Assembly (NCBI GenBank): GCA_025057645.1
Contig: JANXBJ010000004.1
Location: forward strand, 108,971-172,970
Reading direction: 5' to 3'
From: Anaerolineales bacterium
GTDB taxonomy: Bacteria; Chloroflexota; Anaerolineae; Anaerolineales; UBA4823
DNA: 64,000 nucleotides
In this document: positions 53,847 through 63,809 of the stretch, piece after piece
How positions within the stretch are numbered: position 1 is the first letter of the stretch
Layout: every line of letters begins with the position of its first letter
The notes under the pieces: generated by a model
The model's input: the letters and a program-made list of their open reading frames with translations, nothing else
Database searches by the model: none
Told to the model about the DNA's origin: nothing
Translations under genes and position numbers: made by a program

Positions 53847-54413
53847 TCAAGCGAGAATTCGCTGCAAAAGAGCGAGTTCTTCATCCAAGGCTGCCTGAAG
53901 CGCTCTCGCACCGGCGATCCGAATTTCCCGGCCGACCCGCCAACGGGCGTGCACCGCAGAGCGCAGGCTTTCGCGCACGGTAATTAGGGCAAGCCGATAT
54001 GCCCCCGAGTCGAGGGCTGCAAAGGCCGCTTGCCATCCCTTGCCCCTCAGGAATTCCAGCGGCCCTAGTTCGTCCACCACCAGCAAATCGCACGGGATGG
54101 CCTCCCGGAGCACCCTATTCCCCCACTCCAGGGCTTCGGCATCCAGCAACCACTCGCCCACTGCAACCGGCTCGGAGGAAAACGGGGGGTGAAGCGCAAA
54201 AGCCCGATGCCACGCCAGGGGGCGCTTCTCCTCGCTGTGCAGGTCTTGAACCTCAATGCCTACCTTCATTCCGCCTTCAAAGCGGGCCGGGCTGAGCAAA
54301 CCACGCACCTTCACACCCCTTTGCCGCACCACTGCCACCAATGTCTGGCAGAAGGTGGTCTTGCCGCTGCCGCTCTCCCCCACGACCAGCCAGAGTTCAC
54401 CCGCTACAGCCAT
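53847..54413 (-). CDS. THEP1-like NTPase (DUF265 family)
   Basis: 188 residues. P-loop GESGSGKTT at the N-terminus, GVKVRGLLSPA, and Walker B LLVVDELGPLEF match nucleoside-triphosphatase THEP1. Biochemical role in cells is unknown; archaeal and bacterial members hydrolyse NTPs slowly. It overlaps the ABC ATPase gene by 10 bp at its start, so it belongs to the transporter operon. An accessory role in uptake or in processing the cofactor is inferred. Confidence 0.85.
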   Translation of the reverse strand: MAVAGELWLVVGESGSGKTTFCQTLVAVVRQRGVKVRGLLSPARFEGGMKVGIEVQDLHSEEKRPLAWHRAFALHPPFSSEPVAVGEWLLDAEALEWGNRVLREAIPCDLLVVDELGPLEFLRGKGWQAAFAALDSGAYRLALITVRESLRSAVHARWRVGREIRIAGARALQAALDEELALLQRILA

Positions 54414-55180
54414 TGGAGGGTCTTTTTGCCCTCCACGAGGGTGATTTGCAGGGGAATCGAGTAGACCTCTCGGAGCACCTCACTGGTAAATACCTCGTCG
54501 AGCGCACCGTGACGAAAGACGCTGCCTTGGCGCAGGATGACCACTTGGTCGGCCAGCGCCAAGACCACTTGAGGATCGTGGGAGGTCATTAGCACGGTGA
54601 TGCCCTGGCGCTTGAGTTCACGCACCACTTCCACCAAGCGATAGGTGTTTTGCAGGTCGAGGTGCGCCGTGGGTTCATCGAGGAGCAACAAGCGGGGTTG
54701 CTGGGTGAGGGCGCGAGCGATGAGCACCAACTGCCGCTCGCCGCCGCTGAGGGTGCGGATCGAGTGATCGGCCAGGTGCGCAATGCCCACCCGCTCTAAG
54801 GCCTCGAGGGCGATGCGCACATCCTCCGGGCCCGGCTCGGCCAAGCTGGGCAGGTGAGGGGCACGACCCAGGAGAATATATTCGAGCACGCTATACTCAA
54901 AAGGCACATATTCGGTCTGGGGGACCAAGGCCATCAAGCGCCCGCGTTCACGACGGGTGAGGCTGGCAAGAGGGCGGTCCTCAACCCAAATGCTGCCCTG
55001 CTCTGCCTTAAGCCAACCCAGAGTCAGATAAAGCAGCGTGGTTTTGCCGCAGCCGTTGGGACCGAAGAGGACGGTTACCTGATGCGCAGGAAGAGAGAAG
55101 GTGACCTCTTTAAGGACGGCTTGAGCCCGAGCATCGTAGCGGAAGCTGACTTGTTCGAAGCGCAGCAACGGTTTGTTCAT
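54404..55180 (-). CDS. FecE/BtuD-type ABC transporter ATPase
   Basis: 258 residues from ATG 55180, which overlaps the permease stop (ATGA). Walker A GPNGCGKTT, Q-loop LVPQTEY, signature LSGGERQLVLIARAL, Walker B LLLLDEPTAHLD, switch His MTSHD. It belongs to the iron-siderophore/cobalamin importer class. Confidence 0.94.
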   Translation of the reverse strand: MNKPLLRFEQVSFRYDARAQAVLKEVTFSLPAHQVTVLFGPNGCGKTTLLYLTLGWLKAEQGSIWVEDRPLASLTRRERGRLMALVPQTEYVPFEYSVLEYILLGRAPHLPSLAEPGPEDVRIALEALERVGIAHLADHSIRTLSGGERQLVLIARALTQQPRLLLLDEPTAHLDLQNTYRLVEVVRELKRQGITVLMTSHDPQVVLALADQVVILRQGSVFRHGALDEVFTSEVLREVYSIPLQITLVEGKKTLQWL

Positions 55181-56208
55181 CGCTGCTGCCACTGTTTCCC
55201 CTGAAAGCCGAACAGGACCAAAAAAGCCACCGCTCCGATCAACGAGGTCAAAATCCCCAGCGGGATTTCGCCGTTCAGCAGAGTGCGGGCAAGATTATCG
55301 CAGAGGATCACGAACCAACCGCCGATGAGCATAGCACCGGGCAAGCTGAAGCGGGCCTCGGCCCCAAACAGTCGCCGCGCAAGATGCGGAATGATGAGAC
55401 CGACCCAGCCGACCATTCCAGCTACCGAGGTTAATGCGGCGGTGGGCAGGACGGCAGCTACGATCACCAGAGCTCGTTCACGGTGGGGTGCCGCCCCAAG
55501 CGAAAAGGCAATTTCGTCGTTGAGGGCTAAGAGGTTTAGCCGCCAGCGGTAGAGCAGAAGCAGGGCTAGTCCGAGCAGGGAGAAGGGCAGGATGGAGAGG
55601 AATTTCGGCCAGGTCAGGCTGGCCAGCCCGCCCAAGAGCCAAAAGGTGATCTCGGGCAATTGACTGAGCGGATCGGCTAGGATTTTCAACAGACCTACGC
55701 CGGCCGAAAACAGCGCCGAGACGGCGATGCCGGCCAGGATCAGGCGCAGGATCCACCCGCCATAGCGCAGGCGGCGCGCCAGCAGATAGGAAAACCCCAA
55801 GCCGGCTAGGGCAAACACCGCCGCGTTCGCCTGCACTATCAGAGCCGAGGAAGAAAAGAAGACAATGGCGAGCGCAGCTCCGAAAGCCGCCCCTTGGGAG
55901 ACCCCCAAAAAACCCGGCTCGACCAGCGGGTTGCCGAAGAGCAGTTGAAACACTAAGCCTGCCGCCGAGAGCGACATCCCCAGGAGAAGCGCAGTGAGCA
56001 ACCGTGGTAGGCGCAATTGGAACACTAGGCGTTCGGCCAACTCATCACTGCTCAGGCGCTCCGGTGAAAGCAGCCCCGGTGAGGGGTAGCGACCGAGCAG
56101 TAAAGAAATCCAGAGCAGCGCCAGCAATCCTACCCCCAAAGCCCAGAGCATTCGCTGCCGGTGCAGGCTTGAGGCCTGCACTGCTGCCAACGCTCGAGTG
56201 TCGCCCAT
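55177..56208 (-). CDS. FecCD/BtuC-type ABC importer permease
   Basis: 343 residues from ATG 56208, whose A is shared with the binding-protein stop (TGATG). About ten membrane helices. Family motifs: RLPRLLTALLLGMSLSAAGLVFQ, NPLVEPGFLGVSQGA, and the ATPase-coupling GLIIPHLARRLFG. Imports cobalamin, siderophore or heme. Confidence 0.94.
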   Translation of the reverse strand: MGDTRALAAVQASSLHRQRMLWALGVGLLALLWISLLLGRYPSPGLLSPERLSSDELAERLVFQLRLPRLLTALLLGMSLSAAGLVFQLLFGNPLVEPGFLGVSQGAAFGAALAIVFFSSSALIVQANAAVFALAGLGFSYLLARRLRYGGWILRLILAGIAVSALFSAGVGLLKILADPLSQLPEITFWLLGGLASLTWPKFLSILPFSLLGLALLLLYRWRLNLLALNDEIAFSLGAAPHRERALVIVAAVLPTAALTSVAGMVGWVGLIIPHLARRLFGAEARFSLPGAMLIGGWFVILCDNLARTLLNGEIPLGILTSLIGAVAFLVLFGFQGKQWQQR

Positions 56209-57380
56209 CAGGGAAGGTCTCCGGTAAAGCTTGGGATGATCTTTTCGTTCACGAAGGTTTCGTCCAATCCATACAGGGTTTGGTAGAACTCCTTGACCTC
56301 TTGAACGGCGTCGTAGTCCGGGAAAAGCTCGGGGTGCATGCGCGCCGCCAGCCAACTTAGCCCCAGAATCCAGCGCACATCGGGTTGATCCCAGCTATAG
56401 AGATCGCCGGCAAACCCGTATAGATTGCCCTCTCGCACGGCGCGCAGAGCTTCCCACTGCGCATCCTGTTTGAGTTGGGCGACCACCTCGGAGACGTTGC
56501 GGAAGTAAGAGATCACGAAAATCTTATCTGCATCCCAGGCCGCTATTTGTTCAAAGGAAACTTGCGTCCATCCTTTTCCTAATTCGATTTGTTTCCAAAG
56601 GGGTTCCCCGCCGGCGATTTCGGTCATCAGGGTTTGCATCCAGCTTTGGGGGGGCACGTTGAAGGCTACCTTGCCGTCCTTTTCGCTGTATTGCAAGATC
56701 AGCACTCTCGGCTTTGCGACCCCCTGGACGGTTTGTTGCACGCGCTCGACTTTTCTCTGGTAATAGGCCACGATTTGCGCTGCGCGCTCGCTTTGGCCGA
56801 AGATCTGTCCGAGGGTGGTCAGATCGCGCCAATATTGCTCCGGCGTTTCTAGGTCCAGATAGACCACTGGGATGCCCAGCGTTTCGATCGGCTTGCCCAA
56901 GTTTTCCGCCAGATAACTCTTCAGCAAGACCAGGTCGGGTTGGTAAGCAGCGATCTGCTCGGCGCCGGCGTCCCCGGTCAAAGTGGCCTTTTGCTGGTAT
57001 TGCGGCTCGTAGAGGGCGAGGAAATTACCGCTCCCCTGTCCGGTTTGCCCTAAGGCTACAATGCGTTCGCCCGCTCCCGGGAAGATATATGCTGCGTTGG
57101 CCAGCATGAAGAGCGCTCTTCCGGCGATCACAATGCGCCGGGGTGGAGCAGCGAATCGCACTTCTCGCCCAAGCGCATCCTGCACTGTAAATGCGGTAGA
57201 CGGGGAAGGCGGTTCGGGGTATGGGGTTGCCTCGGGCAGAGCGGGGGGCAGGGTTGCCACAACCGGCGGATAGGGAGTGGCTGCTTCGCTCTCCAGTTCG
57301 GGGGCGAAGTCCGATGCAGGGGAAGCGCAAGCGGCCAGCGAGAAAGCGATCAAGAGCACAAGGGTCTTGAAGCGTTGCAT
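56208..57380 (-). CDS. BtuF/FhuD-type substrate-binding lipoprotein
   Basis: 390 residues from ATG 57380 (GGGAGAG upstream). Lipobox SLAACAS, then a Pro-rich linker and the two-lobed helical-backbone binding fold (RRIVIAGRALFML, EQIAAYQPDLVLLKSY, AWDADKIFVISY). Ligand could be cobalamin or an iron chelate. The gene is preceded by a leader of about 225 nt with a terminator/antiterminator switch, so expression probably responds to the ligand or cell state. Confidence 0.92.
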   Translation of the reverse strand: MQRFKTLVLLIAFSLAACASPASDFAPELESEAATPYPPVVATLPPALPEATPYPEPPSPSTAFTVQDALGREVRFAAPPRRIVIAGRALFMLANAAYIFPGAGERIVALGQTGQGSGNFLALYEPQYQQKATLTGDAGAEQIAAYQPDLVLLKSYLAENLGKPIETLGIPVVYLDLETPEQYWRDLTTLGQIFGQSERAAQIVAYYQRKVERVQQTVQGVAKPRVLILQYSEKDGKVAFNVPPQSWMQTLMTEIAGGEPLWKQIELGKGWTQVSFEQIAAWDADKIFVISYFRNVSEVVAQLKQDAQWEALRAVREGNLYGFAGDLYSWDQPDVRWILGLSWLAARMHPELFPDYDAVQEVKEFYQTLYGLDETFVNEKIIPSFTGDLP

Positions 57381-57607
57381 TTTCTCTCCCGTGAGTCGCA
57401 AAATAAGATCAAAGGCTGTCTCTGCGGAAAGGAGAGACAGCCTTTAGGAGCGCAAAAGCGGCTCTCCTTTCCAAGTCCTCACCCGACTAGGCGGGGGGAG
57501 CGGGAGGCAGAGGCGCTTCCGCACTCTACCCGGTAAGGTAGCGCGACTGCCTCACTGTCCTGCTGCCCTGCGGTGACTCCGTTTAGGCAGTCAGGCTTCG
57601 GAGAAGT
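57381..57607 (-). promoter_or_regulatory. Structured leader (candidate riboswitch) of the btuFCD-like operon
   Basis: About 225 nt with several helices. GACTGCCT (57590s) pairs with AGGCAGTC (57540s). A CTACC/GGGTAG hairpin lies near 57525-57540. GGAAAGGAGAG (57472-57462) is exactly complementary to CTCTCCTTTCC (57436-57426) in the terminator. The two pairings exclude each other, the hallmark of a riboswitch expression platform. I looked for the B12 box and CCCGCCACTG core of cobalamin riboswitches and did not find them. No ATG occurs in the leader, so a leader peptide is unlikely. Confidence 0.6.
57411..57445 (-). terminator. Terminator hairpin in the transporter leader
   Basis: Minus strand: AAAGGCTGTCTC (57445-57434), 11-nt loop, GAGACAGCCTTT (57422-57411): a perfect 12-bp stem, followed by GATCTTATTTTG. 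It lies 30 nt before the binding-protein ATG and competes with the antiterminator described for the leader. Confidence 0.75.
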
Positions 57608-57614
57608 GCGCCCT

Positions 57615-57623
57615 ATTATAACA
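57615..57623 (-). promoter_or_regulatory. Extended -10 promoter of the transporter operon
   Basis: Minus strand TGTTATAAT: consensus TATAAT (57620-57615) with upstream TG. No good -35. Predicted start near 57607. Confidence 0.6.
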
Positions 57624-60038: not shown

Positions 60039-60840
60039 GCTTTCGCTAAGCCGCCTCGGAACGGCGTTTCTGCTCAGCGCAGCGATCAGCGTTCTGGCCT
60101 GGCGGGCCAAGGCGCTCTCGCAGAGCGGTGCAATTGCGGCTTTCTTCGTTGGGGGGGTTGTCTTTGGGGTAGGCGGCTGGAGCGGCGCAGCGGTTCTATT
60201 GACCTTTTTTCTCAGTTCGAGTTTGCTCTCGCGCGCCTTTGCTCGACACAAAGAAGAGCTTGGTCAGTTTGTCCTCAAAGGGACGGAGCGGGATGCCGCG
60301 CAGGTGTTGGCTAATGGGGGGTTCAGCACCCTCTGTGTGTTACTCGGATTGCAGTTTCCTATGTTCTCTGGGTGGTTCCTCGCCTTTTGTGGCGGGCTTG
60401 CGGCGGCCAACGCCGATACTTGGGCAACCGAGCTAGGTGCTCTTTCGCCTCAGCCGCCGCGGCTGTTGAGCACCGGTCAAATTGTGCCGCGCGGGACCTC
60501 CGGAGGAGTAACGCCGCTGGGACTCTTGGCCTCTTTGCTGGGAGCGGCTCTAGTGGGAGCGGTGGCTGCCTGGTTTGCCTCCGAAAGGCTGCTCACCTTT
60601 GGTGCGGTCAGCGTGGGAGGCGTGGTCGGCAGTTTGTTCGACTCCTGGCTCGGCGCCGGCTGGCAAGCCGTATACCGTTGTTCGCGGTGTGAGAAGGAAA
60701 CAGAACAGCATCCCCGCCATGCCTGTGGCGAGCAGACCTATCGAGTGCGGGGCTGGAAGTGGCTGGATAACGATGGGGTCAATTTCGCTTGCACGGTTCT
60801 GGGAGGGATCGTCGCAGCGGGCCTGGGTTTGCTCCGTTGA
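60028..60840 (+). CDS. DUF92 / VTE6-like membrane protein
   Basis: 270 residues from ATG 60028. Six to seven membrane helices with the DUF92 motifs RDAAQVLANGG, AAANADTWATELG, VPRGTSGGVTPLG and SLFDSWLGAGWQ; a C-x2-C...H-x-C insertion (YRCSRCEKE...HAC) lies before the last helix. Plant and cyanobacterial relatives (VTE6) phosphorylate phytyl phosphate; function in this group is not established. Overlaps the upstream PH-like gene. Confidence 0.88.
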   Translation: MWSELSLSRLGTAFLLSAAISVLAWRAKALSQSGAIAAFFVGGVVFGVGGWSGAAVLLTFFLSSSLLSRAFARHKEELGQFVLKGTERDAAQVLANGGFSTLCVLLGLQFPMFSGWFLAFCGGLAAANADTWATELGALSPQPPRLLSTGQIVPRGTSGGVTPLGLLASLLGAALVGAVAAWFASERLLTFGAVSVGGVVGSLFDSWLGAGWQAVYRCSRCEKETEQHPRHACGEQTYRVRGWKWLDNDGVNFACTVLGGIVAAGLGLLR

Positions 60841-60955: not shown

Positions 60956-60984
60956 TTGACGGAGCGCATTTCCTATGGTAAACT
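60956..60984 (+). promoter_or_regulatory. Promoter of the arg leader
   Basis: TTGACG (60956-60961), 17 bp, TAAACT (60979-60984) with TG at 60976-60977. Predicted start near 60991, so the leader-peptide ATG at 60995 would be almost leaderless. Confidence 0.65.
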
Positions 60985-60994
60985 TCGCTAGGAT

Positions 60995-61084
60995 ATGCAT
61001 CTTTCCCTAGCCCTGTTTACCCGTATGCGTCGTCACTTCCTGACCCGCCCCGGGGAAGGAAGGGATGCACGCACAGAGTCGTAG
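60995..61084 (+). CDS. Arginine-rich leader peptide (29 aa)
   Basis: ATG 60995 to TAG 61082-61084, reading [20 protein letters not shown] then EGRDARTES. Six Arg codons: 61022, 61028, 61031, 61046, 61061, 61070. CTTCCT (61036-61041), just after the Arg pair, can pair with AGGAAG (61057-61062) and hide the antiterminator strand GGGAAGGAAGGG (61053-61064). A ribosome stalled at Arg codons would cover CTTCCT and free that strand. This fits a classic attenuation leader for arginine biosynthesis; function is inferred. Confidence 0.7.
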
Positions 61085-61119
61085 CATCTATCTATGCCTA
61101 CCGTTGACGATCGAGAGCG

Positions 61120-61152
61120 AGCCCTCCTTCCCGGAGGGCTTGTTTGTATTAT
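61120..61152 (+). terminator. Attenuator terminator before argG
   Basis: AGCCCTCC (61120-61127), 5-nt loop, GGAGGGCT (61133-61140), then TGTTTGTATTAT. It lies between the Arg leader peptide and argG. Its 5' arm and loop CCCTCCTTCCC (61122-61132) are complementary, apart from one bulged A, to GGGAAGGAAGGG at 61053-61064 in the leader, giving an antiterminator alternative. Confidence 0.8.
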
Positions 61153-61172
61153 CTGGCATTGAGGAGTGTGAG

Positions 61173-62432
61173 ATGAGCAAGCCCGAAGTGAAGAAAGTGG
61201 TCTTAGCCTACTCCGGAGGCCTGGATACCTCGGTGATTGTCCCTTGGCTCAGGGAGAACTATGGGTGCGAGGTGATCTGTTTCACCGCCAATATCGGTCA
61301 GGGGGAGGAATTGGAGGGTCTGGAGGCAAAGGCTTTGGCAAGCGGCGCCAGCCGGTTGATCGTGCGCGATCTGCGAGAGGAGTTTGCGCGGGATTATCTC
61401 TTTCGCCTGCTGCGCGCCGGGGCAGTTTATGAGCGCAAGTACTTGCTGGGGACCTCGATCGCCCGTCCCCTGATTGCCAAACATCAAGTGGAGATCGCCC
61501 ATGAAGTGGGGGCCGATGCGGTTGCCCATGGGGCCACGGGCAAAGGGAATGATCAGGTGCGTTTTGAACTGACCTATATGGCGCTCGACCCGCGCTTGAA
61601 GGTGATCGCCCCCTGGCGGGAGTGGGATATCCGCTCTCGGGAGGATGCCATCGCCTATGCTCGAAAACATAACATTCCCGTTAAGGCCTCTCTCCGCTCG
61701 ATTTTCAGTCGCGATGGCAATCTCTGGCATCTTTCTCACGAGGGAGGGCCTCTGGAAGACCCATGGCAAGAACCCGAGGAGGAGATGTTCCAGTTAACCG
61801 TATCCCCTCAGCGCGCCCCTGACCAGGCCGAAGCGATTGAAATCGGTTTTGAGTGCGGTACACCGGTCTCCTTGAATGGCGAGAGGCTCTCTCCGGCGAC
61901 GTTGATCGAGCGCCTCAATCGTCTGGGCGGCAAGCACGGCATCGGCCGCGCCGATCTGGTCGAGAACCGCCTGGTGGGGATGAAGTCGCGCGGGGTTTAT
62001 GAAACACCAGGAGGCACGATCCTGCTCGCTGCGCATCGCGAGTTAGAGTCGCTCACCCTCGATAAAGAGACTCTGCACTTCAAGGACTTGGTGGCTCTGA
62101 AATATGCCGAGTTGGTCTACAACGGTCAGTGGTTTTCGCCGCTACGGGAGGCGCTGGATGCCTTCGTGGATAACACCCAAGGCCCGGTGACGGGCGAGGT
62201 GCGTCTTAAGCTATATAAGGGCAATGTCCTTGTGGTCGGGCGGCGCAGCCCCTTCAGCCTCTATCGGGAAGATTTTGCCACCTTCGGTCAGGAGGACGTC
62301 TATAATCAGACCGATGCCCAAGGCTTTATTCGTCTGTTCGGTTTGCCGCTCAAGGTGCGCGCGCTCAACGGCTTGCCGGTTTCCGGGTTGGATATGCCCC
62401 GACCGGATTACTCCCGCTTCAAGCGGGACTAG
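61173..62432 (+). CDS. argG: Argininosuccinate synthase
   Basis: 419 residues from ATG 61173 with GAGGAG at 61161-61166; the frame is open back to 61065 but that part is the attenuator. It joins citrulline and aspartate with ATP. Seen: the PP-loop [10 protein letters not shown], the citrulline/aspartate site [13 protein letters not shown], and [19 protein letters not shown] near 290. Full family length. Followed after 12 bp by argH; controlled by the Arg leader. Confidence 0.97.
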
Positions 62433-62444
62433 GGGAGAGCGAGG

Positions 62445-63809
62445 ATGACCCTGTGGGGTGGTCGGTTTCGCGAGTCGATGGAAGAGTCCGCTTGGCGACT
62501 CAATGCTTCTTTGCCCTTCGACCGGCGCCTGGCCGAGCAAGATGTGCGCGGCAGTCGGGCTTGGGCTAACGCCCTCTGTCGCGCTGGTTTGCTCACTCCA
62601 GAAGAAAATGCCCAAATCCAAAACGCTCTCGGCACAATTCTGGAGGAGTTCCGGCGGGGGGAGTTCCAATTCCAGCCGCACGATGAGGATATTCACACTG
62701 CAGTGGAGCGGCGTCTGACCGAGCTGATCGGTCCGGTGGCGGGCAAACTACACACCGGGCGCAGTCGCAACGATCAGGTGGCTACCGACTTTCGCCTATG
62801 GGTTTTAGAGGCTATTGACCGGTTGGGTGCGGCGTTGCGCAACTTTCAAGCCGTTTTGGTGGCGCGCGCCGAACAGGACCTGGCTCTGATCCTGCCGGGT
62901 TACACCCATTTGCAACGGGCGCAACCGATCCTGCTCAGCCATTGGTGGCTTGCCCACTTTTGGCCGTTGCAACGCGATCGTCAACGGCTGCTCGAGCTGC
63001 GCAAGCGCACTGCGGTCTTACCTTTGGGCAGCGGGGCGCTGGCCGGCACACCGTTCCCCGTTGACCGGCAGGCGCTGGCCGCCGAGTTGGGGTTCGAGGT
63101 CCCCTGCGCCAACAGCATCGATGGCGTCTCCGACCGGGACTTTGCCGTCGAGTTCCTCTTCTGCGCCAGCTTGGTTGGGGTGCATCTGGCGCGCCTGTGC
63201 GAGAGCTTGGTCATCTTCACCAGTGCTGAGTTCGGCTTTTTTACCCTAGCAGAGGCCTATTCCACCGGTTCCAGCTTAATGCCCCAAAAGAAGAATCCGG
63301 ATTTGTTTGAGTTGGGGCGCGCCAAGGCGGGCAAGCTAATCGGCTTGCTCAGCGGGTTGTTGACCACGCTCAAGGGTCTGCCCTCGGCCTACGATAAGGA
63401 CCTTCAGGAGGATAAACCGCCCGTCTTTGCTGCTTACGATACTCTGATGGAAGTTCTGCCGCCCCTGGGGGGAGCGATTGCGACCCTGAAGGTCAACGCC
63501 GAGAGGTTGGCCGCAAGTTTCGAGCCGGCTCTGTTCGCCACCGACCTTGCTGATTATTTGGTTGAAAAGGGAGTGCCCTTCCGCCAAGCGCACGAGTGGG
63601 TAGGCCAAGCGGTGCGCGCAGCCGAAGAGCAGGGGATAACACTGGAGCGATTGTCCCTTGAGGTATACCGGGCGATCACTCCCCATTTTGAAGCGGATCT
63701 CTACGCTGTCTTCGATCCCTTGCGCAGCGTCACTCGCCGCAAGGAAGAAGGGGGAACAGCGCCGGAGGCGGTTCAGCGTCAGCTAGCCCGGGCAAAGGCG
63801 CTGCTATGA
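62445..63809 (+). CDS. argH: Argininosuccinate lyase
   Basis: 454 residues of the fumarase/ASL superfamily. It splits argininosuccinate into arginine and fumarate. Seen: LWGGRFRESMEES start, HTGRSRNDQVATDFRLW, and the catalytic-loop signature GSSLMPQKKNPD. GGAGAGCGAGG precedes the ATG. Second gene of the argGH operon. Confidence 0.97.
   Translation: MTLWGGRFRESMEESAWRLNASLPFDRRLAEQDVRGSRAWANALCRAGLLTPEENAQIQNALGTILEEFRRGEFQFQPHDEDIHTAVERRLTELIGPVAGKLHTGRSRNDQVATDFRLWVLEAIDRLGAALRNFQAVLVARAEQDLALILPGYTHLQRAQPILLSHWWLAHFWPLQRDRQRLLELRKRTAVLPLGSGALAGTPFPVDRQALAAELGFEVPCANSIDGVSDRDFAVEFLFCASLVGVHLARLCESLVIFTSAEFGFFTLAEAYSTGSSLMPQKKNPDLFELGRAKAGKLIGLLSGLLTTLKGLPSAYDKDLQEDKPPVFAAYDTLMEVLPPLGGAIATLKVNAERLAASFEPALFATDLADYLVEKGVPFRQAHEWVGQAVRAAEEQGITLERLSLEVYRAITPHFEADLYAVFDPLRSVTRRKEEGGTAPEAVQRQLARAKALL

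Follow-up and report, generated by a model that had tools for sequence, protein, structure and literature searches.

The argG-argH operon in the window (the whole 64,000-nucleotide stretch of DNA analysed) is very probably controlled by a ribosome-mediated transcription attenuator. In this reading, a leaderless leader open reading frame (ORF) senses the charging of Arg-tRNA, and the device serves an arginine regulon that lacks the repressor ArgR. Computation established the anatomy of the leader, its conservation, its association with arginine genes, its alternative structures, and the absence of ArgR. An arginine leader-peptide attenuator had been proposed in a sequence-only reading of this DNA, and the retained Arg codons, a switch that operates when modelled, the missing ArgR, and the lack of a T-box all support that proposal.

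Leader anatomy and the proposed terminator switch

The promoter, the 29-codon ORF with six Arg codons, the antiterminator strand, and the terminator were each found where the sequence-only reading had placed them (Table 1). The leader ATG at 60995 lies 10 nt past the -10 element and lacks a Shine-Dalgarno sequence. Across 56 leaders, the ATG follows the -10 hexamer at a median distance of 9 nt, and 55 have no Shine-Dalgarno sequence, the remaining one having a Shine-Dalgarno-like sequence. The short -10-to-ATG distance and the missing Shine-Dalgarno sequence support a near-leaderless start of the predicted leader ORF, and promoter geometry suggests that the transcript would begin 0-5 nt 5' of the ATG. 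In one relative (L016), the leader frame extends 5' of the first ATG, and an in-frame ATT about 10 nt past the -10 element is a possible leaderless start. CGT is the most frequent Arg codon in the leader ORFs of the 56 loci (141/292), yet it is rare in four window genes (12/107).

Table 1. Parts of the argG leader and the operon behind it, in window coordinates
Feature	Position	Strand	Basis or remark
-35 element TTGACG	60956..60961	+	Sequence; most of 56 leaders have TTGACN spaced 16-17 nt
-10 element TAAACT	60979..60984	+	17 nt from the -35 element
Leader peptide ORF, 29 codons, 6 Arg, stop TAG 61082-61084	60995..61084	+	Frame and Arg-x-Arg-Arg kept in relatives
Control codons CGT ATG CGT CGT (Arg-x-Arg-Arg)	61022..61033	+	Core kept in argG and many lysW leaders
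Strand 1, CACTTCCT, able to pair with strand 2 when uncovered	61034..61041	+	Sequence complementarity; folding z -1.23
Strand 2, GGGGAAGGAAGGG, antiterminator strand within the leader ORF	61052..61064	+	Complementary to strand 3
Strand 3, terminator 5' arm and loop, AGCGAGCCCTCC-TTCCC	61116..61132	+	Leader comparison
Intrinsic terminator, GCCCTCC-TTCCC-GGAGGGC (61121-61139) and T-rich tail TTGTTTGTATT (61140-61150)	61121..61150	+	Sequence, leader comparison
argG, argininosuccinate synthase	61173..62432	+	NCBIfam NF001770 / TIGR00032
argH, argininosuccinate lyase, 12 nt past argG	62445..63809	+	NCBIfam TIGR00838

In the proposed mechanism, the point where transcription begins, the translation of the leader ORF, and the response to arginine are predictions from these parts. 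Transcription would start at, or a few bases 5' of, the leader ATG, so that translation probably begins with a ribosome binding directly at the 5' end, no Shine-Dalgarno sequence being present. When charged Arg-tRNA is scarce, the ribosome would stall at Arg-x-Arg-Arg and cover strand 1. Strand 2 could then pair with strand 3 as it emerges, the terminator would not form, and argG-argH would be transcribed. When Arg-tRNA is plentiful, the ribosome would pass strand 2 and reach the stop codon, making strand 2 unavailable and allowing the terminator to form. If the leader is not translated, strands 1 and 2 could pair, and the terminator would form in this case too.

Several lines of evidence support alternative pairing between strand 2 and the terminator. 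In the window copy, strand 2 pairs with the terminator arm with a dG of -24.3 (z -2.67), and 0/200 dinucleotide shuffles pair as well. Among 34 argG leaders, the strand 2:3 pairing has a mean z of -2.19 against shuffles, with p<0.05 in 22. Ranking each strand 2 singly against all terminators does not discriminate among the common CCCTCCTTC terminators, and a summed permutation test was therefore used. In 54 leaders, the summed energy of the native strand 2/terminator pairs is -946, versus -820 (s.d. 18) for permuted pairs, and none of 5000 permutations is as good. Moreover, in L027 both strands differ together from the usual GAAGG/CCTTC type, strand 2 carrying TCTGGCG and strand 3 CGCCAGA.

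The weakest element is the hairpin between strands 1 and 2. The sequence-only reading had described it as a sequestering hairpin, and the complementarity is present, CTTCCT at 61036-61041 matching AGGAAG at 61057-61062, but folding support is weak, with the window value given in Table 1 and a mean z of -0.89 across leaders.

Folding of 54 leaders with a modelled ribosome, its front edge set 13 nt past the A-site codon, follows the classical attenuation pattern. The mean modelled probability of the terminator helix is 0.93 with no ribosome and 0.95 once the ribosome has reached the stop codon, but falls to 0.58 for a ribosome at the last core Arg codon; shuffling the upstream RNA in this last case gives 0.92. 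The window copy behaves similarly, at 0.94 with no ribosome, 0.40 at Arg, 0.96 at the stop codon, and 0.91 with shuffled upstream RNA. Before the 3' arm of the terminator has been made, the 5' arm is held mainly by upstream RNA (>0.5) in 50/54 leaders stalled at Arg, versus 5 when it has reached the stop codon. At equilibrium with a ribosome at Arg, the completed terminator remains favored in about half of the leaders, which indicates that those leaders rely on co-transcriptional kinetics. By these calculations the antiterminator and terminator are mutually exclusive: the antiterminator pairing beats shuffles, and the switch works across the modelled ribosome positions.

Conservation and extent of the proposed arginine regulon

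ArgG was located in 61 genomes, covering the organism itself, its genus, family, and order, and in named genome contigs, among which the best relatives are uncultured Anaerolineae/Anaerolineales. Within the order, 32 loci have readable upstream DNA. The same layout stands directly 5' of argG at 29 of these, one further order locus (L030/L135) has the leader before a GNAT-argG operon, and no leader was found at two (L032, L086). Named Chloroflexota records supplied five extra leaders (L036-L039, L065). In Clostridia, Proteobacteria, Planctomycetota, and several further lineages of Chloroflexota, the argG loci gave no leader match.

Homologs of this leader that lack Arg codons would contradict the sequence-only reading. 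Arg codons are present in every one of the 34 argG leaders compared, almost always as Arg-x-Arg-Arg and often as CGY-NNN-CGT-CGT, although many of these leaders belong to closely related genomes and so do not count as independent cases. In at least two (L037, L065), AGG replaces CGN codons, suggesting that conservation acts on the amino acid or its tRNA. A GC-rich hairpin and a T-rich tail are likewise present in all 34 argG leaders measured, and the leader stop codon lies 20-60 nt 5' of the terminator in all leaders with a readable start. Across the 56 leaders, Arg makes up 19% of leader residues, R-x-R-R occurs in 38, and the residues preceding the Arg core show no conservation. The 40-60 nt from strand 2 to the terminator are likewise not conserved across leaders, unlike the ORF frame and the Arg codons.

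A covariance model (R1) built from 32 argG leaders recovers leaders outside its training set with E values from 1e-9 to 1e-19. In the genome of this organism it gives two strong matches, the window copy (E 3.0e-14) and a second leader, MMLPFAKPAARRPFSPSRGRMGCFALASAR (G000:C55:72484-72608, E 2.7e-11), which is absent from the training leaders. Matches at E<=1e-5 occur in at least 28/298 genomes of the same class, and the leader is present in at least 16/301 genomes of the phylum, all of that class. These counts are lower bounds because the model missed L065, whose RSRR leader is clear by eye.

The second leader stands 5' of lysW-argX-argC-argB-argD, identified by matches to LysW (TIGR01206), LysX/ArgX (TIGR02144), ArgC (TIGR01850), and a [LysW]-kinase (NF010659), followed by the start of an aminotransferase-like frame. 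This cluster (L121, C55:69000-73200) would be assigned to lysine biosynthesis by its family names, yet it carries the Arg leader, which argues for an ornithine or arginine product. The same leader precedes the same set of genes at thirteen further loci, spread over several genera and families, and at one more leader (L133) the contig ends before the gene is reached. In one relative (G337), an Arg leader, MFRQAGLRRTRC..., lies 5' of carA-carB. The leader is thus an element of a regulon with two operons and in some cases three, whereas the sequence-only reading had seen the argG copy alone. The same device would be expected to act on lysW-argX-argC-argB-argD in this organism and on carAB in at least one relative.

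No leader was found 5' of argF in the copies read, and the nine carA loci in relatives gave one weak leader match. A search for PF00988, the small chain of carbamoyl-phosphate synthase, gave no match in the genome of this organism or in its genus and matched just 9/61 relatives, despite the presence of argF, argG, and argH. The genome of this organism has four ornithine carbamoyltransferase-like genes.

ArgR and other candidate controls

ArgR repression is the usual description of how bacteria control arginine synthesis. ArgR (PF01316) was found in 0/61 genomes (this organism and 60 relatives), while control genomes gave matches, and an ArgR regulon is thereby ruled out. Elsewhere in the phylum, 69/301 genomes have an ArgR match, all listed under classes other than that of this organism. 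Lack of ArgR combined with an Arg-rich ORF and a switchable terminator suggests that these cells probably sense arginine through the speed of ribosomes at Arg codons, and the attenuator probably replaces ArgR in this lineage. A T-box is ruled out as well, neither a T-box nor any other Rfam 15 family matching the leader.

Two alternatives assign the sensing to something other than uncharged Arg-tRNA. Fungal AAP and bacterial TnaC are arrest peptides that sense a free metabolite in the ribosome tunnel. A similar arrest here, with free arginine (or ornithine) in the tunnel causing the stall, would account for a translated-looking ORF before an arginine operon and has precedent in other leader peptides that sense free metabolites. 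It is nevertheless improbable: arrest needs a specific nascent chain, yet the residues 5' of the Arg core vary, and the sign is wrong, as a stall by excess arginine at Arg codons would favor antitermination. The terminator/antiterminator pair could also be operated by an arginine riboswitch that needs no protein, or by an RNA-binding regulator of unknown identity, leaving the ORF incidental. However, it is the ORF frame and Arg codons that are kept and not the spacer between strand 2 and the terminator, and RNAalifold finds the terminator as the sole common structure across leaders. The lack of a shared fold beyond the terminator makes an aptamer-like riboswitch unlikely, and with no Rfam match either, direct regulation of the terminator by a ligand or protein is very improbable.

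The remaining alternatives concern the terminator itself. A DUF92 gene upstream of the leader, on the same strand, ends at 60840, and the hairpin might be its constitutive terminator, with a separate argG promoter and no switch. The promoter, however, lies upstream of the terminator, whose T-tract is just 22 nt away from the argG ATG. The layout is also retained with differing upstream genes and before unlinked operons, and this conservation, with strand 2 matched to its own terminator in cis beyond chance, rules out a chance or plain terminator; the two-unit arrangement is hardly credible. Equally hard to credit is control by Rho or translation in place of the intrinsic terminator. Arg-codon upstream ORFs at Salmonella speF do act through Rho and RNase G (PMC6386406), but every argG leader has a GC-rich hairpin and T-rich tail, unlike speF. 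Attenuation by ribosome position at Arg codons, read through an intrinsic terminator, remains the best explanation of the leader.

Related leaders and known systems

Leaders for other amino acids appear to share this design. Family f18, from the same class, has Ile/Leu/Val-rich leaders, such as MRSLSIIAIVVVSLLLVLSGRELKPFRTAVS, 5' of ilvB (acetolactate synthase; gene names assigned by eye). The f18 loci L143, L146-L148, and L150-L156 combine such leaders with the same terminator layout and are apparently branched-chain attenuators. At L157 (G219:C54:178-300), a Val-rich leader, MLLNFNPVVVNVVVVLVSFLPER, read from the printed sequence, and a terminator precede valS (valyl-tRNA synthetase), the names again taken by eye from translations. 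The Arg model catches the Ile/Leu/Val and Val leaders because CGTCGTCGT (Arg) and GTCGTCGTC (Val) runs consist of the same letters. As these runs differ only in frame, a shift of frame might retarget a leader to another amino acid. In the order of this organism, an ilvD-like reading frame lies upstream of ilvB, and no leader was found directly before ilvB. It is conceivable, although rather doubtful, that arginine synthesis in this ArgR-less lineage is wholly under leaderless attenuators and that these belong to an exchangeable family, including ilvB and valS members, retargeted by frame shifts.

The window has one other RNA element, a molybdenum/tungsten cofactor riboswitch (RF01055, 39.9 bits; 57448-57615, minus strand), just 5' of an ABC transporter set comprising a binding protein (56208-57401), a permease (55177-56355), and an ATPase (54404-55192). 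This set resembles the iron-siderophore/B12 type and not molybdenum cofactor genes.

The closest known systems are the trp, his, leu, ilv, thr, and pheA attenuators and the actinobacterial trp, ilvB, and leuS attenuators (PMC1262725), which have in common with the Arg leader a short ORF of cognate codons, an alternative antiterminator and intrinsic terminator, and a biosynthetic operon 3'. Unlike these, the Arg leader has a putatively near-leaderless ORF without a Shine-Dalgarno sequence, a strand 2 inside the ORF, and a weak 1:2 hairpin; its amino acid is arginine, and one device serves argGH, lysW-argX, and carAB. Salmonella speF orf34, an upstream ORF with consecutive Arg codons, also senses arginine via ribosome pausing (PMC6386406), but it acts by Rho-dependent termination, unmasking of a ribosome-binding site, and RNase G decay. 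Moreover, orf34 differs in its Shine-Dalgarno sequence, its conserved peptide, and its target, which is ornithine decarboxylase rather than arginine synthesis. The mycobacterial polycysteine upstream ORFs (Canestrari 2020), as far as they are described where cited in PMC13236596, are similarly short, leaderless, and built on runs of the regulated codon, but their amino acid is cysteine. Cys leaders have no evident intrinsic terminator (PMC1262725).

ArgR/AhrC regulons cover these arginine genes in most studied bacteria, in contrast to the lineage described here. Arg T-boxes, likewise located 5' of arginine genes, sense tRNA-Arg charging and work through a terminator, whereas the Arg leader has a coding ORF instead of a T-box match. 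In Rfam 15 and in the literature searched, which covers a minority of subscription papers, no Arg-specific attenuator was found that governs arginine synthesis through an intrinsic terminator, and that same literature yielded no arginine attenuator in Chloroflexota.

The mechanism is a known one, of the trp/his type; what appears new is the amino acid, the putatively leaderless leader ORF, and the scale of a regulon in place of ArgR. The Arg leaders would widen the range of amino acids under classical attenuation, and a leaderless leader ORF provides a test case for attenuation that combines leaderless ribosomes and an intrinsic terminator. A lineage without ArgR that has Arg-codon attenuators on unlinked operons would represent a full swap of regulatory logic.
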